In this document: piece by piece, positions 24,001 through 56,839 of the stretch
Layout: every line of letters begins with the position of its first letter
Position numbering within the stretch: the first letter of the stretch is position 1
Assembly: GCA_964017185.1 (NCBI GenBank)
Contig: OZ024869.1
Location: forward strand, 64,742,931 to 64,806,930
Source: Rugalucina vietnamica
Taxonomy: Eukaryota > Mollusca > Bivalvia > Lucinida > Lucinidae
Direction: 5' to 3'
DNA: 64,000 nucleotides
Notes under the pieces: model-generated
The model's database searches: none
What the model was told of the DNA's origin: nothing
The model's input: the letters and a program-made list of their open reading frames with translations, nothing else
Made by a program: the position numbers and the translations under genes

Positions 24001-27000
24001 GCCAAAGTGTATTCTGCATATTTGTTTTTATTTCAAAATACAATTGAAGATGTTGGGAACAAAACACAAGTCCGGGCAGATAATACGATCCCAGTTGGCA
24101 ACTACTCACTAGATGTGTACAAGTGTAGAAATGCTGAAGTAATTTCCCTTCTCGGAAGGTGTGATAATGTCAATGACTGTTTCGATCAAAGCGATGAAGA
24201 GAATTGCAAGGATACTGCAGGTATATTAGAAAAATAAATGCCTCGTATGGTAAAGAAAGCTATGAAAATAGAAGAAGAAAAAGAAATAAAATAAAATATA
24301 AACAAAGCGAATAAAACAGAATAACATACCTCAATACTTGAGAAAGATGACTGATCTAAGAAAATATGCAAACGGCACAAACACGCAATGCACCTGAAAG
24401 AGTAGCAAATTAATGTTAATTTAAAGCGTCTGAAAGATAAAATGGTAGGGTTCTTATATGGTCCATGTTGTAACGTACTTTTGGATTGCTGAGCATATCT
24501 CAAGCAATGTCAAGACAATCGAAAGTCAGTAGTTCAACCACTGTCATGAAGCAAATTGGATATACACATAACATGTAAATGGGATTTTTACAAGCTCAAT
24601 AACACTAAATGTGAGCACTGATCAGGATATTTCAAATAAAAAACACATATGTTTTAATTTTCATTCAGAATAATTATACCTGAGGAATAAAATATGATAC
24701 ATAATGCACCTTGCATCTGTAATGCACCTAGCATAAGGATTGTTTGAAAATGTGCAATATTTATGTTATATCATTTGTATCCCGGGTATCTCACATTTTC
24801 TTAACTCGCGACTTATGGTTTTCTGAAAAGTTGCAGACTATGGAATAAAGCACTAGCGCTGATGTATTGAATAGACGTGTTAGCGTTTCCTCCCATTGAT
24901 TGATATATTTCAGATTCATGTGGCGTCGATCAGTTCAGGTGAGTCATCAGTCAATGTAGGAAATAAAATATAAAGGTTTGATCCCTAGGAAGCAGTGAAG
25001 ACGTTCAAAGGGAGGTAGTATGGGCCATAATGCGAAATTTCGGGTGATGATCTCTCATCAGTGATCCTTTACAAGTTGGCTTCTTTAAAAAGAAACCAAT
25101 GAAAAGGTCAGCAGCCGTTTGTTATAAGAGATTCCTTTTGCTCTAGATTTCAGTGTTGTTGATTCTCTGGTTCGTCATTTATTTCGATTCTCATACATTT
25201 CAGTTTCGTTTCCTATACATGAATGTCGTTTCTTGTAATTAACATTGACCAGTGTGTGTATCTGTTGCTCAAGGCAATGACCAAAAGTTTTTATGTTATG
25301 GAATGAAAGCCAATACTAAAGGGAACACGATTACAATCAATATGTCGATTTGTAGAAAACCAATTTGCAGTGAAGTCAATTTGTGACAGAGTTTTGACCT
25401 GCAGCCACACTACCAGAAATAGACCTATAGTGCGATGTGATGGACTTAAAGTCAGCCGTATAGAGTTTCTATAGTTTCTGTACCCCTCATCAGGGTATAT
25501 ACGATGTAAACCTAGATGCGCTATGATAAGCAGTCACCACGATCGAGACTGCTTGCTAGATATTTACTGCTATTTGACGGGGAGTGTCAACATTTGATAA
25601 ATTAAATTGATTGCGGTGAACTGTCTAGTCACTATTGACGGGTTCACTAGTTTTTAGTAAGCGCTTTATGTGACAAAACGCGTAATTGAGGGAGAGCAGT
25701 CGATCATGGGTACAATTTTCTTCATATTCAAAGTAAACACTGTGGAAAAGGTCCTGAGGGACCTTTTCCAATAAACCGGCGACGATAGCCAGATAAATAT
25801 ACCGCAATTTCAAAAATTTACCCAAGGTAAGTCTAAATCAAAGAAACATGCCTAAACGGGATCAAATGATTAAAACATTGTTTATAAGATGGCACTAAAC
25901 GTAAAATTTTGATACCCTGAATTTTCTAACTGATCTTAAAGGACCGAAAGAAATAATATAATCTGCACTATGGTTGATGTACGGGGAGACCTTTTACGGC
26001 CTCCACACGGCACAACGCCAGCTGCAGTAATAGCAAAAAATAAAATATAAATGTTTGATCTTTTGGAAGTAGTGAAACCGTTCAAAGGGAGATAGTATCG
26101 GGCCATATCGCGCAATTTCAGGTACTGAAATCAGGCAAATTGTTTCTAAGTATTCTATCGAAAGAAAATATATTTGATTGTACGTAATTTATGGACACCG
26201 TACTAACGAATTAATGGCAATTATGCCTTTTATGTAAAACATCAGAATATTGAATGTCCTTGAAAAGAAGATACTACTGAGACGTCTTTGGTTTTGCCTG
26301 TCCACCGGCTGTAGTCTCATGATGGAGATACTATCCGTAATTAACAGTGACTGTAAGAGGGGCAAACGTTTGAAAAACACTATGAAACTTACATGCCTCA
26401 AAAATGTTAGAGAGCCTTTTAAAATTACGTTTGCCTTGTAATTGATAGATGCGGAGATGGGAGTTGTGTGTCAATTAGTGTCATGTGTGATCATATACCA
26501 GACTGTGTAAATGCTGACGACGAACATTGCGGTTTGTATTCTAAAGAAAAGACGGATATGACAACATTTTCAATATTATAAGCTCAATATATTGCAAATA
26601 TTATGTAACACGGGTTTTAATAGAGCTTCATCTTGCCTGACTACACCTGCAGCTCTTGAAAGTTGCAGTTTAAAAACGAAAATTCAACTAGCTCCAGAGC
26701 TAAGGTGACTGTTATCACTGTGTGAGTGAACTGATTATGTGATAAGAACAGAAATTGTATCAGTATATAAATATTATATCAGTATATGTCTTCAGATGTC
26801 AGCTGTGTGTATCAGATACTGTAACAGTTTGTATATGACGTCAAGAATTGTTTGTCTGTCTATAAAAGCTGTGACAGGAAACTTTACATTTCTTATATCA
26901 AGCAGACAAAAATTGTTCCCTGTTGGTTAAAGTTGTGCCGGAAAACCAGAGTTACCTTATTTCATATGTGGTTATAGAATTTACATGTCAAGAAGACAAG

Positions 27001-29506
27001 TCATTCTATATGTTATAAAGGTAAAGTAAAATCTAAATCTAAACTGTATTGTTTCAGACTTCCCGCAAAGTGACCTGAATATATAGAAAGACGATTTAAT
27101 AATTATCTGTTCTAGGTGAAAGTAAGATTTCATTTTGTTTCAGATTTCCCGCTATGTGACACGAATACAGAATTTACATGTCAATCCGATCAGAATTGTG
27201 TACCTGTTAGTGAAAGGTGTGACGGAAAACCGGACTGTTTTGATGACACGGATGAAGCTAATTGTGGTAACAAAATAGGTCGATAGGTCATTTAAGTCGG
27301 GTAGCAAGATATAACATGTTTAGCTGCAGTGATGCAATATAAATATAATTATATATAAAAACTATCAATTTCGTTTCGCATTTAGTATATTCTAACTTAT
27401 ATTGGGACAAATTTATTAATAAACATTAAGAAGATGCATAATTACGTAGTTCCCATCGGAATACCTACATTTTGTATTTTGCATAATATTGTTAACAGGT
27501 TTGGTCTTTGTCACAAAGTAAAAAGTTCGAAATAAGGTATTCTTCCGTCAATAAATTCTTCTAGATTCTATTATCTAAGGTTTACTTTCAGTTGCTGACC
27601 AATGCAACAATGGTAATTCCTTCCTGTGCGCGGACGCCTACTGTATCTCCAAAGTCTTTGTTTGTGATGGTATAAAGGACTGTATCTCCGGAGCCGATGA
27701 ATTGGATTGTTACTATCCCGACAGTTGCCAGGCTCTGTGGGACGCTGGGTACCAGACAAGTGGGATCTATGAAATAGGCTAGTTCCAATATTGTCTGTCG
27801 TTGCGTAGTCATATTAGCCAATTTCACTAAGAGTTTCCCCGCAATGTGTCGAGAGCATTCGGGCAATTTCCGAATAAAAGTTGACCAATTAAAATGGAGA
27901 CCGAAATAAAATGAAAATGAATGTGAAAGTACATGTTGGGAGCCTGATTATGATAATTTATTCAAGTGATCCCGGGACTTTGGTCAACTAGTTAACTATA
28001 TTTTCATTTGGAAATAAATGGAAACGGAAATGATATTGTAAATGAATGGTATAATAAAGGGATAAGGAATGTTATTGATTTAGTTGACGAGAACGGGTTA
28101 ATTCATGATTTCCTGACATTAAACGACTTGTATAATAAACATGGTACCTATTTGGATTATGCTCATTTAATAAATCGAATACCTAGATTATGGAGAGAAA
28201 TGATCAGCGAAAATAGTAGAAAAAATAGCATGTACTGATATAACGTCCAAACAAATTCATACATCTTCTGTCTTTTACGTAAAAGGCGAGGTTGTCGCGA
28301 TGTATATGATAAAATAGTTCCCGTAAACAAAACGATTGCACCAAATAAGTGGTTAAATGAAGTTGGTGATATATCAGTTGAAGAGTGGAGAAGAATCAAA
28401 TCTTCATAATATAAAAGAAATAAAATTAAGAGACTTCCAGTTTAAAATAAACAATCGAATTTTAGTCGCAAATACTTTCCTATTTGAAATTAAAAAGAAG
28501 GAAACAAGTTTATGTTCATACTGTAATCAGGAAGCAGAAACTATTACTCATCTTCTATTTTCATCTGAGATAGCTTCAAATTTTTGGAAGAATTTAAAAC
28601 AATGGTTTGAAAGAAAAGCCAATATTAATTTGCAAATTGATTTGAAGAATATTATTTTTTCTTCACCTTCACAAGTATTGTTAAGTTATATTTTAACTGT
28701 TGCGAAATATTACATTTATAAGAGTAAGTTTTATAAGGAAGAAGTAAGTTTAAAAGGTTTAGAGTCGTTCTTAAAATTTAAATTTCTAAACGAAATGTAT
28801 ATTGCGAAAATAAATAATAGACTAGATAGATTCTTAGGAAATTGGTCGAGTCTCTACAAATACATGATAACCATAAACTAAGAGGAGATAAAAAACGTAA
28901 AAGGTTATTGTTACATAATATTCAGTTTTTCTTGATTTGTGCTGTGTTTTGGCAAAACCTTTGTATATAGTAGGAAAAAATAATATCAAAGATGTAAGTT
29001 TACTGATAAGAGTTCAGTTTCTTAATTAAGCCCAGTGCCCAATAAAATAGATTAGCAACGGAAACATATTAATTAGTATATGCTTATGAACACACACATA
29101 CGATCAGTGAGTTTTTGTCCCAATCTATATGTAAACGTTAATGGAGTGTTACAGCTCAGTGGTGTTTGTGGGAAGCCTTGATGGTTTATAGTTTTGGGCT
29201 GTTGTTTTTGTTTTTTTTTTCAAGCTTCCAAGATGATGACCAAGAGCATATATTTTAGGCATTATTAACACTTTTATGGAATGCATAGTTATTACGGTAA
29301 TTATATGATATGCATGTGAACACCAACTGTCATACTCTCGTATATGTACAATTTTTGTAAATGTTCTCTATACATGTTCATTGTTGTTGCGTAAAAGAAC
29401 AAATGTCAAATAAAATTGAAAAAAAGAAAGAAAAAAAAAAGAATTAAATTAGAAGTATGTTTTAAATTGTCAATTTGAAATAAAATTATAAAACTTGAAA
29501 AAAATA

Positions 29507-33200: not shown

Positions 33201-36200
33201 TACAATAAATTTTTGACAAGGCATATCTTTTTCTAAAATTTACAAACCATGTGTAAAATAGCCATTTTTGGAGTATATCGTTGTGTCTTGATTGGCAAGT
33301 ATATTGTCGATTGATTTGAAGCTTTGGGGGACAGGGTGCCAATCGAGCAGTTATAGATGATAAGATAATTTATGAGACATTTATTTGACATTCACGGATC
33401 TGCAAGGCCCCCCGCCCATTTGGGCCTAGGAGAAATAGATGGGCTGCTTGTGTCTCCAGGCAAAGCTTCTTAACCACTGACCGACCATCTGACTACTGGT
33501 TAACCGCTCAAGTCCAGGAAAAGTGGTTTAATCAAACCATCGGCCATACATATAAGCCCTATAGGTTTTCCTGGATAGTTATCAGTCCAATTACCATATT
33601 TAATTCACTTTTTACCAAAGGGCATACAATTGAAGTTAAATTAAGTACGTCTACGGTTTGCATTATGATAGGGTTCATAGACAAATTCAATCAACGTACA
33701 TCTACGTAAAACGTTGCATATCATGTATCAAATGCGTTTCGAAAACATTTATTCAGTCCTACGACGAAAGCGGGCGCTCGTTGCGTACTAAAATTATTTT
33801 CACAGGCCGTTTATTGTTGCAGAATTCCGACACAGTAAAGCAGGCATCGCGTGCGGATATGGTGCTACAACGGCCGCTGAGAGCAGATGCCTGTATAAAC
33901 TGGACGTCTTTGGTCATATAGTTGGTTGTCGCTCTCTAAGACACCTACAGAATTGTGGTATTTTGTATCAGCGCATTATAAAAATGTTGATCGTTATTTT
34001 CAAAAAGAGAGGAGAGTATTTAACGAAATCGCGGATGATTTGTAGTGAACTTGAATGTTTTTATCGCTTAGTACTACACAAAGCCTCTGAAAGGCAGAGA
34101 ATAGCTGCATGCGAGAGTGCTTACGATATCAAGTTGTGAACAATATCGCTCAGGCCTCATACTCATGATCATGCATGGTAATTTGGAATGTCATTGCTCT
34201 TAGTATTTTCTTGCAGTCGATGTCTTGTTATTAATACACGAGTAAATCAAGCACTGTCTAATGCATCTGTGTTCTTTGTAGAGCATTTCGTTTGTCCAGA
34301 CGACTACTTCAAGTGCCCGGAAAGTTTCTGTGTGGAGAAACAATATGTTTGTGACGGTACACCACAGTGCGAGTCTGGAGAAGACGAGACCTACTGCGGT
34401 TAGTGTTGAACTTTTTGAGTCAATGGAAATATTGACATGGAGAATTTTTCAGGTGTTTCAATTAAACGTTTATATACACTTTTTGTTAGCTCTTGTGCGT
34501 GCAAGGGGTCGCTCCGGTCTGCCCAGAGTATGGAATCTGGTCAAACCAGTCATGATATATATTAAGCTATTTTAGTTGTTTACTTGTTTGGCTATATTTA
34601 GGCGCATTCCATGTCATGACATATCATGACGTCTCAGTACATGACGGAAACATCCCGATATGACCATAGCTTTTGACTGTGACGTAAAGCATTATATCAA
34701 TTAATAATATTTGGATCAAAGGGCTTTGCATTTCACACATATCTGATGACGATTAATGACTTTCATCTGACAAATAAAAATATGATCAAATATATTTTGT
34801 TGTACATCCACAGTAGTTCTCTTAAGACTTTGTTATAATGCTTTTACTGTTTATGAAAGATGCTGCGTAGTTGACACTAATTTTGCGTTGAATAACTGTA
34901 AATCCGGTAGTTTTCGCGAGAACTTAATTTTCGCGAATAATCGCGAATTCTATGCCTCGCGAATTCAAGGTTCTCGCGAATACAGAATTTATATAGGCCA
35001 TCAAAACTGCAAGAGCACACGTTCGCGAATTCAAAGCCTCGCGAATAATTCGGAAATAGAAAATTCGCAAAATAAAAGTCATGCGCAAATTTCCGAATTT
35101 ACAGTATTGATAAGGATTTGACACTGAAATCATGTTTGGGACGACATGGGAAAATCACATAAAGTGTTTATGAAATGGATCCAGGAATTTTTGTAAGTGT
35201 TTAATGTACATGTATAGATAAAAGAAAACAAACTGCAGTAACTAGTACTATTTTTAAGTTTTTTCGAACGGCACACGGACTGGTGCCAAAATTTTCACCA
35301 TCATATTTTCAGATACAAGGACCTGCACGTCGGAATTTAGATGTTTAGATTCATACGTTTGTCTGCCGAGACATTATATTTGCGATGGTCATCCACAGTG
35401 TGCACACGGAGATGACGAAAGATTATGTAATTTCACGTGAGTCCACAATTTTATGGCACCCTGATATCACATAATGATTCAATGCCTCGGTCATCAAGCT
35501 TTGCACATTTCCGCCATTCTGTATTCATCACTTAGAACTGAATGTTAGAAGAAATTTCATTGCGTTCTCAAATTATGTATGATGTAAGATCTCTTATTTG
35601 TACTAATGCAAAAATGAGGTAATTTAAGTATAGCTCGATTTTGAACTATGGCGCGTCAAAAGTCAGGGAGACCAAGAAGTAGCGCATTGAAAGAAACATT
35701 AGGACAAATACTGCAAGTTTATCATTCCATTTCATTTGCACGCACATACACACAGCTGTACAACTTTTACAATCTGAGGCTGATCACGTGCTATTACGTG
35801 AACTCGCCGGAATTTTGACGCACCAGAGGTCGAAATTGAGCTATAGATGATGAATTATTAAAAGCTTTACCAAGATCATGCGGTTGGTAAAACTCAAGTT
35901 TGACCTGAAACGCGTCAAAACTAAATAGCACGTGAAATTAAAATCAGTTTGAAATGACACACTCAGGTTTTCCGTTACACTTCGGATGCACGCACAGTAA
36001 GTATTTGTACTGTAACAATTTGAATATTCTTTCACGTGCTACTAAGTAGACTCGCCAATCTTTTGATGCGTCAGATGTCAAATCGAGATATACACTAAAC
36101 AAAAAACAATAGGTCACCGAGGATCTTCGAGTGTAAGGGTAAAACGATGATAATTTCAGATTCGTGCTGTATGATTCTTATTCCTGTGACATAAGGGTAT

Positions 36201-38680: not shown

Positions 38681-41600
38681 ATTAGTACTGATATGTAGAT
38701 ATTGTCTAATACGATATGGATCTTATTTCAGGTGCCCGACTGGTTGTTCATGTAGTGGATTCACTGTTAATTGTCAATCGTCAGATAGTAACTTCTATGA
38801 ACAAATCACTTTACCCACTGCTACAAGAATGATAGATATAAGCGGAAACAATGATATCTACAATCGCATTCCTTGGAATATGACATTCAGTTATTTGATA
38901 CATTTGAATATGTCTTCGTGTGGGATACGTAACATATCTCCTTCCACATTCCTTAACTTGAAAAATCTTATGGTGCTTGACCTCACCTTGAACCACTTGA
39001 AAAATCTACCTTCGCATCTCTTTGTGTCTCAGAGCCGGTTGAAAGTGTTGAGACTGTCACACAACTGGGAGTTCCTAACTATTCAAGCAAATGCGTTTGT
39101 TGGATTGACGAGTGTAAGATTCCTGAGTATCAACCACATTAACATTGAACGTATTTCACAAAACGCGTTTGCCTCCCTTGATCTGGTTTCTCTTGACATG
39201 TCGGCTGCATCTATTGAGCAGATTGAAAATAACGCGTTTGCAACTTTAAAAGCGGACAACATTTTATTGAATAACTCGAAGATAAGCACGTTTTCGTCTG
39301 GACTATTCGAAGGCATTGAGGGTGTCAGTTTGTTGGTAACAGATTCTGTCAAGTTTTGTTGCATCAAGCCGTACTTTCTACCAGCGGATCGTTGTTTTCC
39401 ACCTGAAAACACGATTTCGTCATGTGACGATCTTCTTCGACATGAAGTCATAAGGCCATTTGCTTGGGCGATAGGACTGACGTCTTTAGTCAGCAATGCA
39501 CTTGCATTTGGTTACCGACTGTACGACAAAGAACGATTGAAACTTGGGTACGGAATTTTTGTGTCAAATCTTGCCATCTCTGATTTCCTCATGGGCGTTT
39601 ATCTTATTATCATTGCTGGCGCCGATGTCTATTATAGAGGTAATTACATGATGAATGATGATATATGGAGGAATGGATGGCTTTGTAACGTTGCTGGCGT
39701 GATATCCACATTGTCATGCGAAGCTTCGGTTTTCTTTATATGTCTGATAACCATAGATAGACTTCTGGTAGTCAAGTATCCGTTTGGAGAAGTTCGAATG
39801 CGACCGGGACCTTCCTGGGCCATTTCGATTACTGCATGGGTCATTTCCTTTTTTCTATCACTATTTCCGCTTTTTTACACTACATTTTTCAAGGGAGAGT
39901 TTTATTCTCGATCCAGTGTTTGTTTGGCGCTACCTCTCACCAGCGATAAGCCTGCAGGATGGTTGTATTCGGTCATAATCTTCATTTGCATTAACTTTAT
40001 TCTGTTCCTCCTCATTGCTGTTGGCCAGTGGATGATTTTCCGAGAAGTCACGAAATCATCGGAGAAGGTTGTGTCGAAAGATCGGGGAAGTCGACAGAAA
40101 GAGCTACGAGTCGCTCGAAATCTTCTTTTAGTTGCCATGACGGACTTTTTGTGTTGGTTTCCGGTGGGAATTCTAGGTATATGTTTAATCAGTATGTGTT
40201 GTTAGAAACTGTCCTGAAGCTATATAAATCGACATTGCAAATGGTCAAACGAGCCTTTAGCGAGTTTAATAAATTTCCTATGAAATGACCACGAGTATGA
40301 AATTCGTTGTATCATCATTTTGATATTTAAATTGGAAAGCGTTATCGCCTTTACAGTGGACATGTTTTCACTGAAAATCAGCTTTGTTTCTGCGAACGTC
40401 GTCACAAGACTCCTGATCAAATACAGATATTGGTACCAGCATGCTTTAAAATAGCGGGACTTGCGCCATTTGCAGAACGCTCTAGCATTTGTCTTATTAG
40501 TGTCGACGCTGTCATGTTTGTCGATCATTTCAGGCGCACTGGCTTTGGGAGAAGTATGGATATCTGGAGAGGTGTACTCGTGGGTAACTGTGTTTGTTCT
40601 GCCGATAAACAGCGCTCTCAACCCATTTCTCTATACGCTTATGGCGACTGTTAAGAAAGAGGTAAGGATTACGACCAAATTTTGACATCGAACTACTTTC
40701 ATGGGAATGAGACCATTATAAAAAGTTAAATATTTCCCTGCCTGAAAATCTGAAATCTCATTCGGTACAAATAAATAAGGATAATGAAATACTAGCTCGG
40801 GAACTGATTCAAAAATAACACCAAAGGCGCCATCCTAAACCGAGATGGGAAAAGGCAAACTGACAATAAGGTTCTGATACAAACAAAACATTATGCTGAT
40901 TAAGTAGTAATTGTCTTACGCCTTCTACTCGGTTACCACGATGATTACTTTATTTGAACGAGTGAAATAAGATTGCATATATATATACCAAGGGAGAATC
41001 CAGTATTTCTAAAACGGGATTCATACATATCATGGGTGTGGTTTCATTACCTTTGTTTCGTAAACCCATGGAAATGAAGATGTCTGGTTGGAATGGTAGG
41101 TTATGTACTAGCAGAACCCCCGAATACGTCCTCTAAACACAACACTGAATTAATCGCAAAGGATAGCACCTAAAGCACAGAATTTTAAAACAATTATACC
41201 AAATGACTTTGATAAAGCCTCGCTTGCTTTACTGATTCAATCCTTATAGTACATGATATATCGGCAAAACAATTTCTGAACTGAAAAGTGCAATCAGTCT
41301 ACTGCTTAAGCTCAATACCAAAGCCGTCACGTCAATGGCAGTTATTAATGTCATACACAATGATTTCAAGCGTTTACAAAAATGCAACAAAATAAATTGT
41401 GTGGACAAAACATATTCACCAGGACCAACGTGACTTCTGGAGACATACACCCAAATCCAAGCAAATGCAATTTGTTGGCTTTCATTTGCACTAAAATGTG
41501 TTAATTACGTCACTCGAACGTTTATCATTAAGAAAACTTGATTTTATTTGCGTGTAAAATGAACATAATTCAACAGCTTTTGAACGTAATACATACATGT

Positions 41601-43959
41601 AGGCACGGACCCACGTAAAATACCATAACTGTTGACGCTGAAATCCAATACCTTTTTAATTTGACCACTTTACGAGTATTATTGACGTCAGCAAAGACCG
41701 CTGGCGCCTTAAAATACATTGAAATTATTATATTTTGCTTTTTCTTGTGCGTAACTGTCACCAGAGACGATTTATTTATAGAAAACCCCTATATTGAAGC
41801 CGTTGTTAACCTTTCTTACGTCTCGATGACGTCTGTGAAAACACCGATGTAGCAAACAAATCAGCGAATTAATGTTTTATAGCGACATATTGTTCATGGT
41901 GTTAAGATACTATGATACTATGATTTCTTGTATTTTCAACTTCTAAGACGTTTCAAGCAAATGATAACCGACGTAAAGTGAGGCGTTGTCAAAAGTCCCT
42001 TAGTTTAATATCTCAAAAAAAAAAAATATTTGTATATTACACAAAAAGCAAACCGTATTACTGTCACAGTTGAAACGATGTCGAATGTTTGCTTGCAAAT
42101 ATTGACAAACATTAGTTAAGCGATGAGCATACCAAAATGGCGACAAAGTTGTGAATTATTTTAGGCAATGATGCCAGAAGCTGACGAACAAGTTCAAACA
42201 CTAACATTCCCGAAAGGTTAGTATGTTTATAAAATGAAATAAATCAAGTACACCTTTGTGTCGATTCGCCTTGTATCCCTACTGAGAATCACGTAGTATT
42301 GTGTACATACAAACCGATAAATGCTCAGTGACACACATTGCAATTGAGGCCGAAGTTGATGTTAGATTTTCGAGTTTTCTCCTAAAGCGTTTACTCGATT
42401 GATATGTAGATATGTTTAGGTAATGCAGAAATTGAACATTTATTGACAGACAGTAACATATTAGGAATCCCGTTTATTTCGTTTTTGCAAACACTTCAAT
42501 GTTGTTGTGATAGAAGTTCTGAAAAAAAAAGCTTTCCCGAAGTGTTTGCGAAAACGAAATAACTTTGATTTCTTATGCTTCTTTCATTCAATAAATGTTC
42601 AATTTCTGCACTACCTGCACCTATTCATCAGTCAATAGAGATAAGTCAATAGAGTAAACGCTTTAAGAGAAAACTCGAATATCTCACCTCAGCTTCCGAC
42701 ATAATTGTAATGTGCGTCACCGATCATTTTATCGGTTTGACCACGTGTTTCTCTGCTGTGTTGTGTATGCTATTGCAATACTCGCTTGTACATGTACATG
42801 TATAACACAGAAATACTGATATGCAATTTTCGAATAAGAGTATAGATCCATCGTCGCTTCGAGTCTTGTAAAATCATTTATTCTTTTGTTGTTTATTCTT
42901 TGTTCTTTTTATTTGCTTATACACTAGCTTATCATAGTGAAGAAAATAAGATACGGTTCCGATCAACTTTGACTCAAAATCATTATTTTATCAATTTTGC
43001 TTGCAGCGAAAATCGAAGAACTATCAACCCTTTGGAAAGATAGATGTTTGGTTCTAAATTCAAAAGAGTATGGAATACCAGTTGGATACCAAACACTGGC
43101 CGGCCTTGTTGATAGGAAGGCACTGACCCTTCGCCAGTCTATAACGATTGGGAAAGAACTATTGGCTATAATGTGTAACCTCCACAACCATGAGCTTGTC
43201 CAGAAAGACTTGATGATCGATGATGTGTTTGTCAAGCTATCTACGTCTGTAAGTATCGTTTCCTGATAACAGTCTCTTACCTTAAAGTTAACAAGTTAGT
43301 TTGAGACGATTGACTTATATGTACATATGTACATGTATACATGCAAATTTTATTGAGATTGGCGAATGTATGGACGACTGGGAACGGATCAAAAGGTACA
43401 CTGCGGAATACATTACTTATGCATACTTCTAATACTTGCACCCAGGGCCCAGAATTAAAATTCTTCCTTAAAGTAAAGGAAGACTTTAGTCAACGTGGCG
43501 AATTTCATCATCTGAAATGATGCATCTGAAACATACTGAAATCATAATTATATGTTTGATTATGCATATGACAATTATTTAAGACATTGTTTTTATTTTC
43601 GTAAAAAGCAGTTATTGATTTTTTCATGAATATGTATAGCGTGGTAGCAATCGGCACAGTCAAAGTATATACATGTATATTTACCTATACCTCATGATGG
43701 ATATATGGATACACTGAGTATAATATTAATAATAGACGAACAGATTGGTGTTTTAGCCCACAGGAATAAAACTGATTTTATTATAGATTCTATTTTTCAA
43801 TTACCATTCCAGGCTACTGACAGAAACAAGGTACGGGTGGTGCTGGACGCTCGTACGCAACTTGGTTATATGGCTAAATCAAAGGCGGAAAATGTCAAAA
43901 GCTTTGGTGACATTTTACACCAGTTTTTGGAATCAAAAACTCATGAAAGACGTACTTGA
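8840..43959 (+). CDS. Mosaic CUB/CTLD/LDLa/FReD/LRR seven-transmembrane receptor (GRL101-like), 23 chained exons
   Basis: Exons: 8840-9091, 10135-10340, 13799-14078, 14342-14740, 15074-15118, 17372-17584, 17995-18067, 18599-18768, 24050-24220, 24914-24938, 26449-26531, 27144-27266, 27592-27777, 31405-31732, 32518-32690, 33823-33957, 34282-34398, 35313-35436, 38732-40176, 40534-40661, 42165-42216, 43007-43248, 43813-43959. All junction phases agree, giving about 1,705 codons (numbered here from the codon split at 8840) and a TGA stop. The product should be a plasma-membrane receptor with a very large secreted-side part and a rhodopsin-like 7TM domain related to Lymnaea GRL101 and the RXFP/LGR group. 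Most ectodomain introns are phase 1, as in exon-shuffled proteins. Ligand and G-protein partner are not inferable. The N-terminus is incomplete: exons at 1043, 2599 and 8250 may belong to it. The donor at 27778 is GC, not GT. No AATAAA was found close after the stop. Confidence 0.88.
9092..10134. other. Intron, mostly unremarkable
   Basis: AT-rich intron. At about 9945-9985 it contains a GGCCGCCATCTTAGACGCC / ATCTTGG block related to the repeats at 60195-60240, 60750-60780 and 63735-63760. An open frame at 9260-9523 has no recognisable protein character. Nothing else is supported. Confidence 0.6.
10135..10340 (+). CDS. Receptor exon: first half of CUB domain 1
   Basis: Acceptor GTTTAAAG, donor CAG|GTATTG, residues 85-153, entering in phase 1 and leaving in phase 0. 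The translation shows the CUB hallmark KPGIITNLDYPFHYSSGE followed by IWCWKI, corresponding to the conserved 'G.I.SP.YP..Y......C.W.I' of CUB domains, then a strand ending VSVNRNQ. The first of the usual four CUB cysteines seems to be absent. CUB domains bind protein partners, often with calcium. The domain is completed by the exon at 13799. Confidence 0.88.
10887..13702. mobile_element. TIR-bounded non-autonomous DNA element, about 2.8 kb
   Basis: The ends are inverted copies of about 30 bp with two mismatches. The left end begins AGGGTGTCCCAAAAACG; the right end is its reverse complement, finishing CGTTTTTGGGACACCCT at 13702. They continue to pair through GTAGC..TACAAT. Such ends are typical of Tc1/mariner-like elements, although a clear TA duplication is not visible. 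No transposase frame was found inside, and other repeats are nested in it. A similar solo end occurs at 7328. Confidence 0.65.
11062..11254. mobile_element. Foldback MITE with CATGCGCGGATCCAG ends
   Basis: TTTAAACATGCGCGGATC at the left is mirrored by GATCCGCGCATGTTTAAA at the right, with about 190 bp between the outer ends. The inside contains G- and C-runs with TCCAACCCCC and GGACCCCCGG. It is nested in the 2.8-kb TIR element. Confidence 0.8.
13799..14078 (+). CDS. Receptor exon: second half of CUB domain 1
   Basis: Acceptor TTCTTACAG, donor CATCAG|GTATAG, residues 154-246, phase 0 in and phase 1 out. The frame is open throughout. It ends in the CUB core strands NTVWLLWRTVSRFDTPATD and AAGFRLLAYPAS; the final 'G-F-x-L-x-Y' is the standard last CUB strand. 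The exon lies 96 bp after the end of the TIR element, so the insertion left the splice site intact. This part of the domain has no cysteines, so the usual second CUB disulphide may be absent. Confidence 0.85.
14342..14740 (+). CDS. Receptor exon: CUB domain 2
   Basis: Acceptor CTATTTTAG, donor ACACAG|GTAAGC, 399 bp, residues 247-379, phase 1 both sides. A whole CUB-like module lies in one exon. It has ICKSGETCTW near the start, then IWNIHVKEKHYIYLSFTLFD, a Cys in DIGCQSG, a second in HTLCN, and the closing strand LTEGFKAEY. The WNI and F-x-A-x-Y motifs are CUB-like; the entry 'SP.YP' motif is degenerate. The 5' part of the surrounding reading frame (14275-14341) is intronic. Confidence 0.85.
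15074..15118 (+). CDS. Receptor micro-exon: linker between CUB 2 and the lectin-like domain
   Basis: A 45-bp exon (15 codons, residues 380-394) between TATTTACAG and AAAG|GTAAGG, phase 1 at both ends. It reads VSVFYGGSNNQTAIK. It keeps the frame between CUB 2 and the CTLD exon at 17372 but is optional for phase, so it could be alternatively included. Confidence 0.65.
15119..17371. other. Intron with an inverted copy of a dispersed repeat
   Basis: Blocks at 16140-16340 and 16780-16830 are collinear inverted copies of 3960-4190 and 3560-3620; shared words include CGTGACGTTAGTGATTTT and AGTGGTGCGTTTCTAA. A good-looking acceptor at 15761-15770 opens a short frame without a matching donor and was not accepted. 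The rest is AT-rich with nothing seen. Confidence 0.55.
17372..17584 (+). CDS. Receptor exon: C-type lectin-like domain, first part
   Basis: Acceptor TTAATTTCAG, donor TATCG|GTAATC, 213 bp, residues 395-465, phase 1 both sides. It reads VCSKPFKKCYILL, then W-A near TWAFVYTQICSYYNWSL and the helix ISLRNELEQDLVGQL, ending GIVYVYIG. This is the CTLD order: N-terminal Cys pair of the long form, W, first canonical Cys, 'L..i....E' helix 2 region and the start of the WIGL motif (here VYIGL). Confidence 0.88.
17995..18067 (+). CDS. Receptor exon: C-type lectin-like domain, WIGL part
   Basis: A 73-bp exon, phase 1 in and phase 2 out, donor TCTTG|GTAAAT, residues 466-489. Joined to the previous exon it gives YIGLRKGVHRQSQYHWINGS then PVTYTSW. 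This is the central CTLD strand ('iGl......W.dG....y..W'), and the last Trp codon is split across the next intron. A degraded copy of the following exon is found within that intron. Confidence 0.9.
18425..18535 (+). pseudogene. Relic duplicate of the last CTLD exon
   Basis: The block CTAGATACATGGCAAAGGG ... GACCAAGGCAGATGCAGTA closely parallels the live exon start and its upstream intron (GGACACAGGGCAAAGAG ... GACCTAGGCAGATGCAGTA), offset by about 110-125 bp. The flanking intron 'ACCTGGCT.AG.TAC' is also duplicated. Using its CTAG acceptor would create a TGA at the split Trp codon, so it is a dead tandem copy. Confidence 0.75.
18599..18768 (+). CDS. Receptor exon: C-type lectin-like domain, C-terminal part
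   Basis: Acceptor GGACACAG, donor AATG|GTACGT, 170 bp, residues 490-546, phase 2 in and phase 1 out. It shows W-AKSHPATDLGRC, then IWESISCYDPM and LVVCEHEW. The three remaining CTLD cysteines are present. The calcium/sugar motifs are not canonical: the EPN/QPD position reads S-H-P-A (cis-Pro kept, acid lost) and WND reads W-E-S. Classical calcium-dependent sugar binding is therefore doubtful; protein binding is more likely. Confidence 0.88.
18974..20985. mobile_element. AGCTCACC-bounded composite repeat with internal 323-bp monomers
   Basis: Begins TTTTAGCTCACCTGAGCCG followed by the partial inverted repeat GGTGAGCTTA, a (GTCC)n run at 19026-19058, and ends CAGGTGAGCG...GGACCATTGGTCC TCTGG at about 20980. 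Inside, a unit with GATTGGTTGCAGGGGCCCC recurs at 19349, 19672 and, more diverged, about 19992, a period of 323 bp. Repeated small frames (19322 and 19645) are only a consequence of this duplication. Related copies: 44040-45225 and, inverted and partial, 46161-46450. Confidence 0.75.
21280..21600 (+). mobile_element. SINE-like repeat copy
   Basis: Shares GGGCCCCCGC, CTGCTTGTG, GATCATCTGTTTACTG and the end block GTCCCGACATGGCCAT...GTTGACAGGGGCGTTAAGC with the copy at 4736-4980. It differs by an inserted segment (about 21440-21530). The tail is degenerate rather than (CAAA)n. Confidence 0.55.
23218..23458. mobile_element. Hairpin MITE with a long GCTGATC stem, copy 1
   Basis: The outer ends GAGCCGCCTCATGGGAAAA and TTTTCCACGAGACGGCTT are inverted. 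Inside, GGCGCAGATCAGCTTCGCGG faces CCGCGAAGCTGATCAGCGCC to make an almost perfect hairpin at about 23268-23311. A second copy lies at 53184-53425. No coding frame. Confidence 0.8.
24050..24220 (+). CDS. Receptor exon: LDLa module 1 (degenerate)
   Basis: Acceptor AATTGAAG, donor CTGCAG|GTATAT, residues 547-603, phase 1 both sides. After a Cys-free spacer with IPVGNYSLDVYKC, the module reads RCDNVNDCFDQSDEENC, the C-terminal LDLa calcium-cage motif (D..x..D...SDE) being intact. The first and third LDLa cysteines are absent, which are the I-III disulphide partners, so the loss is coordinated. The acceptor lacks a strong pyrimidine tract, but the joined frame (N-D-V-G-N) and phase fit. Confidence 0.82.
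24221..26448. other. Introns around the split LDLa 2 module
   Basis: 24221-24913 and 24939-26448 are introns flanking the 25-bp exon 24914-24938. The segments near 25860-25980 and 26085-26110 resemble pieces of the repeat at window bases 1-330 (for example TCTTAAAGGACC and CTGCACTATGG). No other feature is supported. Confidence 0.55.
24914..24938 (+). CDS. Receptor micro-exon: start of LDLa module 2
   Basis: A 25-bp exon between ATATTTCAG and TTCAG|GTGAGT, phase 1 in, phase 2 out, residues 604-611 plus two bases. It encodes DSCGVDQF and the first two bases of Arg, giving 'C...F.C', the first LDLa strand, once spliced to 26449. Splitting an LDLa between its first and second cysteines, with an exon this small, is unusual beside the one-exon LDLa modules that follow. 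Confidence 0.8.
26449..26531 (+). CDS. Receptor exon: remainder of LDLa module 2
   Basis: Acceptor TTGATAG, donor TTGCG|GTTTGT, 83 bp, residues 612-639, phase 2 in and phase 1 out. Reads RCGDGSCVSISVMCDHIPDC then VNADDEHC, completing a six-cysteine LDLa with D..x..D...DDE calcium ligands. The frame closes only when joined to the 25-bp exon. Confidence 0.85.
26860..27095 (+). pseudogene. Three decayed copies of an LDLa exon
   Basis: Upstream of the live LDLa 3 exon are three fragments resembling it. At about 26867-26952, AATTGTTCCCTGTTGG and GTGCCGGAAAACCAG parallel the live AATTGTGTACCTGTTAG and GTGACGGAAAACCGG. At about 26968-27005, AGAATTTACATGTCAAGAAG parallels AGAATTTACATGTCAATCCG. At 27051-27090, TTTCAGACTTCCCGC...GTGACCTGAATA parallels TTTCAGATTTCCCGC...GTGACACGAATA. 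All have stops or lost cysteines. Confidence 0.75.
27144..27266 (+). CDS. Receptor exon: LDLa module 3
   Basis: Acceptor TTTGTTTCAG, donor TTGTG|GTAACA, 123 bp, residues 640-680, phase 1 symmetric. Contains all six LDLa cysteines: LCDTNTEFTCQSDQNC, then RCDGKPDCFDDTDEANC. The calcium-cage acids (D..x..D...TDE) are present. One module in one symmetric phase-1 exon is the classic shuffling unit, and relic copies lie just upstream. Confidence 0.92.
27592..27777 (+). CDS. Receptor exon: LDLa module 4 and start of the FReD-like module
   Basis: Acceptor TTACTTTCAG, residues 681-742, phase 1 in and out. The LDLa reads QCNNGNSFLCADAYC, then VCDGIKDCISGADELDC, with six cysteines. It is followed by YYPDSCQALWDAGY and TSGIYEI, the conserved opening of fibrinogen-related domains (C....L..G...SG.Y.I). 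The end is set by a GC donor: ATAG|GCTAGT after 27777. This gives Glu at the junction and runs straight into GGEVECDF of exon 31405. A GTGGGA donor after 27763 would also keep the frame but would delete the conserved SGIYEI. Without splicing, translation stops two codons on (GGC TAG). Confidence 0.85.
27965..29442 (+). mobile_element. 5'-truncated LINE with 3' UTR and A-rich tail
   Basis: The reading frame at 28008-28238 and, after a shift, 28357-28881 encode the C-terminal part of a LINE ORF2: KLRDFQFKINNRILVANTFL, then LCSYCNQEAETITHLLFS and SNFWKNLKQWF. This C..C....ET..HL.F pattern with the following W is characteristic of L1/Tx1-type elements in aquatic animals. A stop at 28879 is followed by a 3' UTR of about 530 bp, AATAAA at 29410-29416 and an A-rich tail ending near 29442. 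The reverse transcriptase core is missing. The left boundary is approximate. Confidence 0.8.
29513..30253. mobile_element. Foldback, Penelope-like terminal element between TA microsatellites
   Basis: A (AT)n run at 29513-29553 is followed by GGAGATTTTATCATCAACAG and, further on, a block ending ACTACATAAGAAATAAA. Their inverted copies lie at 30037-30078 (CTGTTGATGATAAAATTTCC) and about 29853-29897 (TTATTTCTTATGTAGT). Between the right arms is a hammerhead-ribozyme-like core (29999-30036). A second (TA)n block occupies 30166-30253. The arrangement resembles the terminal repeats of Penelope-like retroelements. No reverse transcriptase is present. Confidence 0.6.
29999..30036 (+). ncRNA. Hammerhead-ribozyme-like motif
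   Basis: GCCT-CTGAAGA, then A-GCC-GAAA-GGC, then GAAA-GCGCGC-TC-AGGC. This has the conserved CUGANGA and GAAA boxes, a stem II hairpin (GCC/GGC with a GAAA loop), a minimal GCGCGC stem III, UC before the expected cleavage site, and AGGC pairing with GCCT as stem I. One extra A follows CUGAAGA compared with the strict consensus, so activity is uncertain. Type I hammerheads with tiny stem III are known in Penelope-like elements. Confidence 0.5.
31405..31732 (+). CDS. Receptor exon: core of the fibrinogen/CNTNAP-like module
   Basis: Acceptor AAATTGTAG, 328 bp, residues 743-851, phase 1 in, phase 2 out. It begins GGEVECDFSHIITDNNIITR, the 'F.V.CD' of FReD modules, followed by a His-Asn-Ile segment and IYPDNEALRHITQNESCYQT, then HQLC and an acidic/aromatic stretch. 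The order C-D, 'y....eaL..l...S..C.Q.....C', and later C-x-C (HACHC) is closest to the FReD-like region of contactin-associated (neurexin IV) proteins rather than to true fibrinogen. I chose GTTAGT after 31732 as donor because the next exon needs phase 2. Confidence 0.78.
31733..32517. mobile_element. Intron with a tRNA-derived SINE
   Basis: At about 32049-32292 is a SINE whose head starts GGCGGCCCTCGAGTGGC and has a box-B-like GGGTTCGAGCCC at about 32147. The body has CGACAAGCCAAGTTTTGC and TTTCGCCTCACCTACTG, and ends AAAGGGACTTTAAACTGA. A diverged 3' half is repeated at 12500-12585. Nothing else is seen in this intron. Confidence 0.7.
32518..32690 (+). CDS. Receptor exon: end of the fibrinogen/CNTNAP-like module
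   Basis: Acceptor CATGTTACAG, donor ATGCAG|GTACAC, 173 bp, residues 852-909, phase 2 in and phase 1 out. Reads HDEVQDCEESRHFPNKTFH, then LAFEHNTDGTIQSMTL and YKLDVLPITCHA. A tail with 'L....LP.....C' is as expected at the end of CNTNAP-type FReD modules. It joins to EFRHSK of the next exon. Confidence 0.8.
32691..33822. other. Intron with a SINE-like fragment
   Basis: 33407-33560 is a partial copy of the GCCCCCCGCCCATTTGGGC... repeat (compare 4736-4980). The remaining AT-rich sequence, including the minus-strand frame at 33064-33342, has no recognisable coding character. Confidence 0.55.
33823..33957 (+). CDS. Receptor exon: conserved Cys-rich linker before LDLa 5
   Basis: Acceptor TATTGTTGCAG, donor TTGTG|GTATTT, 135 bp, residues 910-954, phase 1 symmetric. 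Reads FRHSKAGIACGYG, then ESRCLYKLDVFGHIVGC and RSLRHLQNC. This is not an LDLa by consensus, but a block of the form 'RC.y.lD..G...GCR.L.HL.nCe.f.C' preceding an LDLa is, as I recall, a recurring feature of molluscan GRL101-like receptors. It is probably a structural unit with the following LDLa. Confidence 0.8.
34282..34398 (+). CDS. Receptor exon: LDLa module 5
   Basis: Acceptor TTCTTTGTAG, donor CTGCG|GTTAGT, 117 bp, residues 955-993, phase 1 symmetric. Six cysteines: FVCPDDYFKCPESFC then YVCDGTPQCESGEDETYC, with a complete calcium-cage motif (D..x..C.SGEDE). It directly follows the Cys-rich linker. Confidence 0.92.
34895..35105. mobile_element. Foldback MITE with ACTGTAAAT ends and TTCGCGA repeats
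   Basis: The left end ACTGTAAATCCGG is mirrored by CCGAATTTACAGT at the right. The interior is full of TTCGCGAATTC-type inverted words. It lies between LDLa exons 34282 and 35313. A TA dinucleotide is found next to each end. Confidence 0.8.
35313..35436 (+). CDS. Receptor exon: LDLa module 6
   Basis: Acceptor ATATTTTCAG, donor TTCAC|GTGAGT, 124 bp, residues 994-1034, phase 1 in and phase 2 out. Reads RTCTSEFRCLDSYVC then YICDGHPQCAHGDDERLC, with all six cysteines. The change to a phase 2 donor marks the end of the shuffled-module series and the join to the large LRR/7TM exon. Confidence 0.92.
35437..38731. other. Intron with a 1.3-kb TIR element and a CT microsatellite
   Basis: Holds the TIR element at 37241-38550 and a (CT)n tract at 38646-38674, just upstream of the LRR exon acceptor. 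A partial SINE-like block is near 36940-37020. 35440-36900 shows no recognised feature. Confidence 0.6.
37241..38550. mobile_element. TIR element with TACGAGGGATG ends, non-autonomous
   Basis: The left end TACGAGGGATGTTCTTTAAT is repeated inverted at the right (ATTAAAGAACATCCCTCGTA at about 38529-38548); the match continues, imperfectly, for about 30 bp. TACGAGGG-type ends are typical of mariner-like elements. No transposase was found; the one notable frame (37699-37917, minus) is only hydrophobic. Confidence 0.7.
38732..40176 (+). CDS. Receptor exon: LRRs, hinge and TM1-TM6
   Basis: A 1,445-bp exon between CTTATTTCAG and TTCTAG|GTATAT, phase 2 in, phase 1 out, residues 1035-1516. It starts with an LRR N-cap (CPTGCSCSGFTVNC), then about six or seven LRRs of 23-24 residues (for example LMVLDLTLNHLKNLPSHLF), a hinge with KFCC and two further Cys, and the 7TM core. 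TM1 1276-1299 (N in SLVSNALAF); TM2 1310-1332 (LAISD); TM3 about 1351-1378 (DRL in place of DRY); TM4 1396-1417 (W in ITAWV); TM5 1444-1471 (no proline); TM6 1494-1516 (CWFP). The FCC hinge and LRR-7TM fusion place it with GRL101 and RXFP/LGR-type receptors. The LRR and six helices in one exon look retroposed or intron-poor compared with the ectodomain. Confidence 0.95.
40177..40533. other. Short intron inside the 7TM coding region
   Basis: A 357-bp phase 1 intron between TM6 and the third extracellular loop. No repeat or regulatory element is apparent. Confidence 0.7.
40534..40661 (+). CDS. Receptor exon: extracellular loop 3 and TM7
   Basis: Acceptor GATCATTTCAG, donor AAGAG|GTAAGG, 128 bp, residues 1517-1559, phase 1 in and phase 0 out. 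Reads GALALGEVWISGEVYSW, then VFVLPINSALNPFLY followed by TLMATVKKE. NPFLY is the NPxxY motif of rhodopsin-like receptors; ISGE and LP.NSALNPF are characteristic of the LGR/RXFP/GRL101 group. The upstream part of this frame (from 40461) is intron. Confidence 0.95.
40662..42164. other. Intron, little structure
   Basis: A diverged copy of the 'GATGGGAAAAGGCAAACTGACAAT' type repeat (see 52575, 58105, 62195) occurs near 40785-40880. The rest, including several short frames around 41244-41852, shows nothing recognisable. Confidence 0.5.
42165..42216 (+). CDS. Receptor exon: juxtamembrane tail
   Basis: A 52-bp exon between TTATTTTAG and CGAAAG|GTTAGT, phase 0 in and phase 1 out, residues 1560-1576. 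It encodes AMMPEADEQVQTLTFPK. It is the only small exon in this intron that converts phase 0 after TM7 to phase 1 before the kinase-like exon, which is the main support for it. Confidence 0.75.
42217..43006. other. Intron with an inverted repeat
   Basis: 42355-42500 and 42530-42680 form a long imperfect inverted repeat: TTTTCTCCTAAAGCGTTTAC is answered by GTAAACGCTTTAAGAGAAAA, and GAAATTGAACATTTATTG by CAATAAATGTTCAATTTC. This is a foldback MITE of roughly 0.4 kb centred near 42510 (GAAGTTCTGAAAAAAAAAGC). Confidence 0.7.
43007..43248 (+). CDS. Receptor exon: kinase-like tail, helix E and catalytic-loop equivalent
   Basis: Acceptor TTTTGCTTGCAG, donor CGTCT|GTAAGT, 242 bp, residues 1577-1657, phase 1 in and phase 0 out. 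The frame has a helix like kinase helix D/E (ALTLRQSITIGKELLAIM), then LHNHELVQKDLMIDDVFV. This aligns with the protein-kinase signature LH...lvHRDLK..NvLv: His-Arg become Gln-Lys, Asp is kept, the metal-binding Asn is Asp. No glycine-rich loop or VAIK lysine precedes it. Catalysis is therefore unlikely; a scaffold or pseudokinase role is an inference. Confidence 0.78.
43249..43812. other. Last intron
   Basis: AT-rich intron of 564 bp. It contains ACATGTACATGTATAC-like alternating words and nothing else recognisable. The start of the reading frame that reaches the last exon (43705-43812) is intronic. Confidence 0.65.
43813..43959 (+). CDS. Terminal receptor exon: kinase-like DFG and helix F region, stop
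   Basis: Acceptor TACCATTCCAG, phase 0, residues 1658-1705, TGA at 43957-43959. Reads NKVRVVLDARTQLGY, then ENVKSFGDILHQFLES. VVLDAR is at the place of the kinase VKI.DFG.A (F-G replaced) and VKSFGDILHQFL is at that of helix F (DVWSFGVLLWEL). Helices G-I are missing because the protein ends soon after. The combination supports a truncated kinase C-lobe. No AATAAA was found in the 80 bp before the next repeat. Confidence 0.8.
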   Translation, partial: ATDRNKVRVVLDARTQLGYMAKSKAENVKSFGDILHQFLESKTHERRT

Positions 43960-55248: not shown

Positions 55249-56839
55249 TGCGCAAAAAATCTAAGGGCCAGAGATTTGATTCGCGTTTTTGACCAACATT
55301 AATTTTTTTCCTAACCAAACACATTATGATTTTGTGTTACATGTACATGTATCATGTCTCTGCTACACACTCATCATCGTTTCGATGCCCTCTCTGCTCG
55401 GGAAAAGAAGATATTTATGCTTTAAACCGCTATACCCATGAAATTGCGTGATTTGCATGTATGCATTGTGATTTTGATTTTGCTGTGGATTTTGAGGCTT
55501 AATGTGGTCTGTGTTACACTATGGAACTGTAAAATGCCTAATCGAAGACATTTACCGTCAGGTGAAATGGATCGGATATTGGATTACTCTTGGCAGGAGA
55601 AACCCAACATTACGTCGGACGTCGTTTCAACGTCAGTCATTCGGTCGTCTGACGAATCTGGCAACGCTACTTGGATACCGGATCTGTTCAAAAACGTTCA
55701 GGAAGAGGTCGTAAAAGGAAAACTACGGCTCAAGACGACCGCTATATTGTCAACTTAATAGCCGAGCGACGCCGGTTCGACTCTGCAAAAACGCTTAATT
55801 CACAGGTCCAGAATGTCATTGGAACTCGTGTTTGTGATCAGACCATCAGAAACCGTCTACTTGATGCTGAATTGAATGCGCACAGGCCTGCTGTACGCCC
55901 AGTTTTTACCCCACGGCACAGACTACTTCGGCTGGACTTTGCACGTCAGCATCAAAACTTTCGAGTGGCCCAATTGAGGCCTATTTTGTGGGCAGTCTTA
56001 ATTCTGTGTAGACTTCCAGGACGGAAGGCGTCGTGTGTGGCGACAGAAAACCCAGCGTTTCAAAGATTGTTGTCTTGTCGAACACGATCGGTTTGGTGGA
56101 CCATCTGTGCTAGTGTGGGGTGAGGTATGTTACGATGGCTCTACAGAGCTGTACATTATTCGTAATGGATCGCTTACCGGTGTGAAATGTAGAGATAAAA
56201 TTCTCGAAAGAATTATCCGTTCGTTTGCTGGCGCAGTAACCCGAGTTCGTGTTAATGGACGATAATGCTTGACCACATAGAGATAAAGTAGTGAATGAAT
56301 TTCTCGAACGGGAGACAATACAACGTAAAGATTGGCCAGCACGCTCCCCCAACATTAATTCTATAGAGCATGTATGGGACTGTCTTCAGAGACGAATTGC
56401 TGCCCGTAACGTGCAGCAAGGGATGCGAGCGGTACTGGAATTTGCGTTGATAGAAGAATGGGGCAGAATTCCCTTGGCGGACATCCGGAAGCTCATTAGA
56501 GAAGCTTCTGCTCAAGTTGTATTGAGGTGATACAGGCCCGTGGGGGACATACCCATTATTAACCTGACAGTTGTGAGCATGTTGTTGTAAAGACAAAACA
56601 AATTAACAAATTTACTACCCCACCCACCAATCTAAATTCATCCCATTTTGGACGGTAGTGAGATGTTCTGTTAATTTCCAACTTAATTATCGATTACTTT
56701 AAAATGTTGTTCTTTTTTTATTTATTTTTTTATTTATTTATTTATTTATTGGTAACAAAACATAAGAAAATAAAGTAATATATTAAGCATTCACAATGTA
56801 TGCTTGTTTCAATATCTGGCCCTTAGATTTTTTGAGGCG
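55249..56839 (+). mobile_element. Tc1-type DNA transposon, complete ends, about 1.6 kb
   Basis: The terminal inverted repeats contain CAAAAAATCTAAGGGCCAGA at 55253 on and its reverse complement at 56815-56833, about 26 bp matching with a few outer mismatches. Both ends are flanked by TA, the expected target duplication. The length, ends and enclosed DD34E transposase are all typical of Tc1. It lies in the intergenic region downstream of the receptor. Confidence 0.85.
55533..56530 (+). pseudogene. Broken Tc1 DD34E transposase
   Basis: The frame starts at an ATG near 55533 (MPNRRHLPSGEMDRIL, HTH region), shifts before 55671 (GSVQKRSGRGRKRKTTAQDD, the hinge between the DNA-binding helices), continues to about 55985 and is then frameshifted around the first catalytic Asp. 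The next block (VWRQKTQRFKD, GPSVLVWGEVCYDG) is in another frame. The second Asp sits in MDDNA followed by an in-frame TGA. The last part has SPNINSIEHVWD with the Glu 34 residues on. Catalytic-domain order is clear, but at least two frameshifts and one stop make it inactive. Confidence 0.85.

Follow-up and report, generated by a model that had tools for sequence, protein, structure and literature searches.

A predicted leucine-rich-repeat GPCR with an inner tail of apparent protein kinase C-lobe origin

Within the window, a stretch of 64,000 nucleotides from Rugalucina vietnamica, we find on the forward strand a predicted GPCR gene whose product carries an inner tail apparently descended from a protein kinase's lower half. 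A partial pseudokinase in this position had been proposed in the initial annotation, and profile searches now support that proposal, with kinase matches reaching 7.8e-5 for B-Raf, the best PDB match of a profile built from 26 paralogous tails. On the evidence of its sequence, from which the residues that catalysis requires appear to be lost, we read the tail as a conserved C-lobe module that is almost certainly non-catalytic.

Results

Gene model and receptor type

The gene at 38732-43959 (+) is a predicted leucine-rich-repeat GPCR of the GRL101 type. Its model is based on splice borders and on paralogs, and comprises the following elements, all on the forward strand:

38732..40176 (+), exon with the leucine-rich repeats and TM1-TM6 (splice borders, frame; Pfam 7tm_1 2.3e-34, LRR_8 1.7e-19)
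40534..40661 (+), exon with TM7 (splice borders, frame; Pfam scan)
42165..42216 (+), 52-base exon linking TM7 to the kinase-like part (splice borders, frame)
43007..43248 (+), kinase-like exon, approximately beta5/hinge, alphaD, alphaE, catalytic loop and beta7 (profile searches)
43180..43236 (+), counterpart of the catalytic loop, LHNHELVQKDLMIDDVFVK (sequence; column counts over 39 tails)
43813..43959 (+), last exon, with the stop (splice borders, frame; homologous exons after other tails)

All five exons are separated by GT..AG introns, and a single open frame runs through them from the leucine-rich repeats to a TGA stop at 43957-43959; the splice borders indicate that the final three, which make up the tail, join in frame. 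A small linker exon similar to 42165-42216 recurs in three paralogs (L009, L011 and L013). The tail lies after TM7 where it had been placed from the letters alone, and the three segments on which the kinase reading was built (LHNHELVQKDLMIDDVFVK, VVLDAR and NVKSFGDILHQFL) are all present.

Kinase homology of the tail

In profile searches, exon 43007-43248 shows homology to protein kinases, approximately from beta5/alphaD through the catalytic loop. With the window tail as sole query, four PDB entries matched at E<=10 and all four were kinases (best 0.053), while a query of six tails returned 28 matches, 27 of them kinases (best 0.01). The profile of 26 paralogous tails matched 488 PDB sequences at E<=1, and all of the 60 matches listed among these 488 were kinases. 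Comparison of the tails with five kinases of the same genome and ten PrkC sequences gave P=1.4e-6, a score equalled by none of 300 column shuffles. Scanned against Pfam, the window tail gave no kinase, and the one structure model, at a pLDDT of 49.5, was too low in confidence for use. No N-lobe was seen, as the initial annotation had stated.

The significance of this homology applies to exon 43007-43248 and not to exon 43813-43959. In the latter, VVLDAR ends at 43854, with DAR (43846-43854) occupying the DFG place, and is followed by the helix-F-like NVKSFGDILHQFL at 43891-43929. The order and register of these elements are compatible with a kinase origin of the exon, whose kinase likeness was not significant when it was tested alone. 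The kinase order claimed for the whole tail is borne out by profile searches in the first of these two exons, and in the second, covering the DFG place and helix F, it stands as a compatible reading.

Substituted residues and conservation among paralogs

In LHNHELVQKDLMIDDVFVK, Gln replaces the His of HRD and Asp replaces the catalytic-loop Asn, in agreement with the changes first reported at these two positions. Both substitutions are shared by the paralogous tails: the HRD His position is Gln in 38 of 39 aligned tails and the Asn position is Asp in all 39, with the same residues found at both positions in eight further tails (8/8 each). On the question of whether some paralogs retain HRD, the motif is kept in none of the 47 tails read (39 + 8).

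The kinase-like tail is common to many sister receptors of the same genome: a search recovered 65 GRL101-like receptor exons, 52 of which are followed, on the same strand, by such a tail exon. A Hox-like homeobox cluster was also observed, which is indicative of a bilaterian.

Open frames upstream of the gene

Several open frames upstream of the gene encode domains recognised by Pfam:

14263..14874 (+), CUB-like (CUB, E 0.00041, 21.1 bits, slightly below the curated cut-off of 21.4)
26423..26578 (+), LDLa repeat (Ldl_recept_a, 8e-05, 23.2 bits, slightly below the cut-off of 24.1)
27116..27283 (+), LDLa repeat (3.6e-09)
27579..27779 (+), LDLa repeat (1.2e-08)
34182..34400 (+), LDLa repeat (2.9e-08)
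35258..35437 (+), LDLa repeat (3.4e-08)

The CUB-like frame may belong to the extracellular portion of this receptor.

Discussion

For the tail module we infer a role in docking or gating. Our literature search found no report of a GPCR with such a kinase C-lobe tail; the arrangement supported here by profile searches would be that of a GPCR whose tail is a partial, degenerate kinase C-lobe.

A GRL101-type receptor gene continues into a kinase-like tail

The window belongs to contig C1 of a 1.09-Gb assembly (G000). The gene lies on its forward strand, where five exons separated by GT..AG introns form a single open frame ending in TGA. The exons and the tail motifs discussed below are, in window positions:

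38732-40176, + strand: exon with leucine-rich repeats (LRRs) and transmembrane helices TM1-TM6
40534-40661, + strand: exon with TM7
42165-42216, + strand: linker exon
43007-43248, + strand: kinase-like exon
43813-43959, + strand: last exon
43846-43854, + strand: DAR, at the place of the kinase DFG motif
43891-43929, + strand: helix-F-like stretch

The first part of the gene has Pfam matches to LRRs and 7tm_1. Upstream of the LRR exon lie five LDLa frames and a CUB-like frame; the CUB-like frame and one of the LDLa frames score just below the Pfam threshold. All six are open frames identified by Pfam and connected to the LRR exon by position only. Judged from the sequence, this architecture, with a seven-helix part of class A, is that of GRL101-type LGRs. 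Two further frames occur on the forward strand of the window: a zf-RVT frame (zinc-binding, reverse-transcriptase-associated; 28357-28878, Pfam E = 1.8e-06), located between LDLa frames, and a Tc3-like transposase frame (55653-56120, HTH_Tnp_Tc3_2, E = 1.2e-17).

Behind TM7 the gene continues with the linker exon of 52 bases and then the kinase-like stretch. The initial annotation, made from the sequence alone, had described this cytoplasmic tail as a partial pseudokinase, and the tail motifs it quoted are present where it placed them.

The tail exon is related to the C-lobe of protein kinases

Scanned alone against Pfam (E ≤ 10), the window tail retrieves no kinase family and three weak unrelated matches; against PDB sequences at the same threshold it retrieves four matches, all of them protein kinases in the expected register (best STK33, E = 0.053). 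Adding paralogous tails from the same genome strengthens the kinase signal. Six tails together give 28 PDB matches, 27 of them kinases (best E = 0.01), and 26 tails give 488 matches at E ≤ 1, the best 60 of which are all kinases, headed by B-Raf (7.8e-5) and followed by RAF, KSR, STK40, GCN2 and others. A profile search of paralogous tails thus finds kinases, in agreement with the initial reading of a partial, degenerate kinase C-lobe as the tail of a GPCR. An ordinary domain scan misses this relationship in the window gene: when the 26 tails are scanned singly against Pfam (E ≤ 1), Pkinase catches only 4 (best 0.0017), PK_Tyr_Ser-Thr 2 and Kdo 2 (best 0.0096), and the window member is found by none of the three.

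Profile-profile comparison gives P = 1.8e-5 against 80 relatives of PrkC (from Bacillus and its kin) and P = 1.4e-6 against a set of ten PrkC sequences and five kinases encoded in the genome itself, the five being drawn from its 158 matches to PF07714 (PK_Tyr_Ser-Thr); in either comparison none of 300 column shuffles scored as well. The latter alignment matches 68 columns without a gap, starting near beta5 and running through the catalytic loop. Seven whole tails, each comprising the kinase-like and the last exon, give P = 0.003 and P = 2.3e-4 against the same two sets (0/300 shuffles in both); their alignments extend no further than the catalytic loop and the strands that follow. By these comparisons, the tail exon is homologous to the C-lobe of the protein kinase superfamily over alphaD, alphaE and the catalytic loop, and in PDB searches it is nearest to TKL kinases (RAF/KSR). 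AlphaFold, run on exon 43009-43248 as a single sequence, gave a model with pLDDT 49.5 and pTM 0.33, which was set aside as unusable.

The last exon is compatible with helix F

The initial annotation had followed kinase order beyond the catalytic loop, into a DFG place and helix F. The catalytic-loop exon bears this out with significant scores, but the last part does not reach significance alone and is only compatible in order and register. Three PDB searches with the last exon returned kinases in 0/1, 0/8 and 0/17 matches. Its best place in kinase profiles is helix F, in an identical register every time; column shuffles score as high in 256/300, 275/400 and 227/300 trials, and still in 107/400 against a target reduced to the region beyond beta7, while a profile of eight last exons (A6) scores higher reversed than in its true direction (11.4 vs 9.3). 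The placement itself is somewhat unusual, as 13/400 and 7/300 shuffles fall on the helix F diagonal; with the eight-row set, 32/300 land in the helix F region.

Kinases carry a conserved Asp in helix F. The corresponding position is Asn in all 19 last exons of an alignment in which some rows are weak matches (E 0.2-2.5) or were found by profile, and were accepted by appearance and place. We regard the helix F assignment as likely, yet unproven. Between DAR and this Asn lie 12 residues in the window; if the assignment is right, no activation segment would be left. The frames of the window gene and of three further loci (L009, L011 and L013) end soon after the helix-F-like stretch.

Catalytic residues are changed in the tails examined

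The kinase-like exon could be aligned for 39 tails, representing 37 distinct sequences, some of them near-copies, and excluding one frame-split copy on contig C8 (L053). The His of the LH motif is present in all 39. The HRD His is replaced by Gln in 38 and by Pro in one, and the catalytic-loop Asn by Asp in all 39; the HRD Asp is more variable (Asp 28, Asn 6, Glu 2, other 3). Eight further tails, compared by eye, all have both the Gln and the Asp, and three lack the LH His. The initial annotation had noted changed catalytic positions in the window and asked whether some paralogs retain HRD or DFG. The changes are as described (HRD His to Gln, Asn to Asp, DAR at the DFG place), and no paralog was found to be intact: HRD occurs in 0/47 tails and, provided that its place is rightly assigned, DFG in 0/19 aligned last exons, where DAR, D-x-R or LRP-like residues are seen in those examined.

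No N-lobe was seen either, in line with the initial annotation. Between TM7 and the kinase-like exon no N-lobe-like frame was seen by eye, either in the window (frames of at least 30 residues) or in a paralog on contig C12 (at least 18 residues), a search which an N-lobe split over smaller exons would escape. In the window model, the single 52-base exon at this place leaves no room for the glycine loop, the VAIK Lys or the alphaC Glu. Lacking an N-lobe, HRD and DFG, the tail should not function as a kinase, and we consider it very probable that it is both kinase-derived and non-catalytic.

Most GRL101-like receptors of the genome carry the tail

A genome search with the seven-helix part (E ≤ 1e-10) gave at least 71 matches: 65 TM1-TM6 exons of GRL101-like receptors, the most distant of which may be other receptors, and six TM7 exons. 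The 65 exons are spread over 15 contigs (C1-C15; for example L020-L049), some close together. A distant paralog's tail exon of 78 residues, used as query, gave 41 matches at E ≤ 10, of which 40 (two being halves of one exon) lie 1.6-43.5 kb downstream of a receptor exon on the same strand; the chance of a random place falling so near a receptor exon is about 0.2%. Two additional queries brought the receptor exons followed by a tail exon at a distance of up to 60 kb from 38 to 52 out of 65, so that paralogous receptors, as the initial annotation had suggested checking, do keep the tail. Six of the 52 are based on search matches alone (C7:14576808, C7:19259764, C3:36325285, C14:30887133, C14:30554230 and C14:30919050); a fourth tail query matched these six places again, together with three unpaired matches (E 1.2-6.4). 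For the remaining 13 receptor exons, which include the most distant ones, no tail match was found; their tails may be too diverged for detection.

Three tail matches remained unpaired in the 52/65 count. The first, C10:9151114, has its own TM7 exon; its locus (L015, G000:C10:9143001-9153000 of the assembly, G000) contains TM7 and tail exons, yet no TM1-TM6 exon within 10 kb upstream (L017) or nearby in the genome search. C5:1272700 (L193) was dropped as noise, its sequence reading as something else, and C12:24397440 as a fragment with a stop. The C8 copy (L053, G000:C8:29781188-29781807) has its tail exon in two frames, as by a small indel, which reflects either decay of the copy or a fault in the assembly.

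In the same assembly, five homeobox exons, each 86-93% identical to an Antennapedia-class homeodomain, share a strand and a stretch of 0.55 Mb (G000:C12:40836597-41384931). We take this group to be a Hox-like cluster; to our knowledge such clusters are absent from sponges, which speaks for a bilaterian genome. Molluscan haemocyanin (PF14830) returned no match, a result without diagnostic value.

Constraint and alternative explanations

The explanation that we favour, with good probability, is that a piece of a protein kinase C-lobe, closest to TKL, was domesticated as the tail; it would be non-catalytic and may serve in docking or gating.

A first alternative is that the tail is a kinase-derived relic, a mere spacer heading for loss. 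Nei-Gojobori estimates from three close paralog pairs, made without significance test, gave dN/dS of 0.46-0.51 for the kinase-like exon (80 codons), 0.17-0.29 for the last exon (39 codons) and 0.11-0.13 for the seven-helix part (212 codons). In this test for selection, which the initial annotation had proposed, dN/dS is below 1 in 9/9 comparisons; the tail looks constrained, though less so than the membrane part. The kinase-like exon's value, roughly fourfold the one for the seven helices, would suit a decaying spacer, as would the 13/65 receptor exons with no tail match, the C8 exon split over two frames and the stop-bearing fragment at C12:24397440. Against it, besides the nine values below 1, stands the conservation of the changed residues. 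Identity to the window tail is only 14-33% in 23 of 25 compared tails (67% in the two closest), and at this divergence both replacements in the catalytic loop persist in open frames, the Gln being absent from a single tail. Since these two positions are nearly fixed across such divergence, the module seems to be kept for a non-catalytic use, and we regard the spacer as unlikely.

Descent from another kinase-like family, such as Kdo/WaaP or APH, appears slightly less likely still: Pfam Kdo does match two of the 26 tails, but Pkinase matches four with a better best E-value, and the top PDB matches are RAF/KSR and other protein kinases. Marginally less probable again is convergence, in which a helical tail would resemble the alphaE-catalytic-loop stretch by accident. 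The single-sequence evidence is weak and the last exon shows no significant likeness, as convergence would have it; however, significance grows with alignment depth (0.053, 0.01, 7.8e-5), nearly all of the matches listed belong to one superfamily in one register, and the 68 gap-free columns, aligned to a kinase set with five members from this genome, reach a score that no shuffle out of 300 attains. Activity by an unusual mechanism, perhaps with an N-lobe supplied by another protein, is very improbable: the HRD Asp is retained in 28/39 tails, but it is lost in the other 11, no N-lobe was seen and DFG is found in none of the 19 last exons.

A possible role for the tail

Under the domesticated C-lobe explanation, Gln and Asp would form a family signature in place of the HRD His and the catalytic-loop Asn. 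Phosphate transfer by the tail would be impossible; the fragment would instead fold into a small helical platform beneath the membrane, offering a docking or gating surface that may, for example, bind a kinase or adaptor, or regulate how G protein, GRK or arrestin reach the receptor. Among non-catalytic uses this would be the likeliest, with a precedent in other receptor pseudokinases; we hold such a docking or gating role about as probable as its opposite. In kinases, contact between the HRD His and the helix F Asp holds the catalytic loop. The paired change of the former to Gln and of the latter to Asn suggests that this internal contact was kept in another chemistry.

If the tail recruits partners, the receptors would have an output additional to the G protein, and the conserved Gln and Asp provide a direct handle on it. 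There is an even chance, in our estimate, that these tens of genes form a receptor family with a half-kinase tail and a fixed Gln/Asp pair, signalling through the tail in addition to G proteins or in their place.

Comparison with known receptors and pseudokinases

With its LDLa repeats, LRRs and class A seven-helix part, the window gene resembles the GRL101 family (Lymnaea GRL101 and arthropod LGR5; type C LGRs) as presented in the part of PMC8286064 consulted. The parts of PMC12297450 consulted place snail GRL101-like receptors in a schistosome-resistance region. The window tail is kinase-related, and this sets the gene apart from literature descriptions of GRL101 receptors of other species: PMC12297450 and PMC6267866 do not use the word kinase in their main text, and in the consulted part of PMC8286064 the only kinase mentioned is that of the insulin receptor. 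Among titles and opening lines of abstracts in the open-licence literature, we found no report of an LGR, GRL101 included, with a tail resembling a kinase, an absence which is no proof.

GPCR-kinase fusions are known from oomycetes, amoebozoans, choanoflagellates and sponges (PMC12716839, in part). Within the excerpt, section 26 of that paper places GPCR-TKs in sponges and in no other metazoan lineage, and its discussion counts GPCR TKL/Ks among families new to metazoans; the excerpt of PMC5784254 calls GPCR-bigrams in metazoans rare or even nonexistent. Like the GPCR-TKL/K and GPCR-TK fusions, the window gene joins a seven-helix receptor to a kinase-related C terminus; unlike them, with their recognizable kinase domains, it has only a broken kinase part, carried on an LGR in a probably bilaterian genome. 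If the half-kinase receptor family outlined above is real, bilaterian animals would possess a class of GPCR-pseudokinase receptors.

The kinase-homology domain of receptor guanylyl cyclases, JAK2 JH2 and KSR are kinase-derived domains with a non-catalytic use in signalling, and all of them keep both lobes. The window tail differs from these pseudokinases in showing no N-lobe and in ending soon after the helix-F-like stretch. What we propose that it shares with them, including KSR, which is also among its PDB matches, is a kinase-derived and non-catalytic nature; if so, half a kinase has been retained here for a use other than catalysis.
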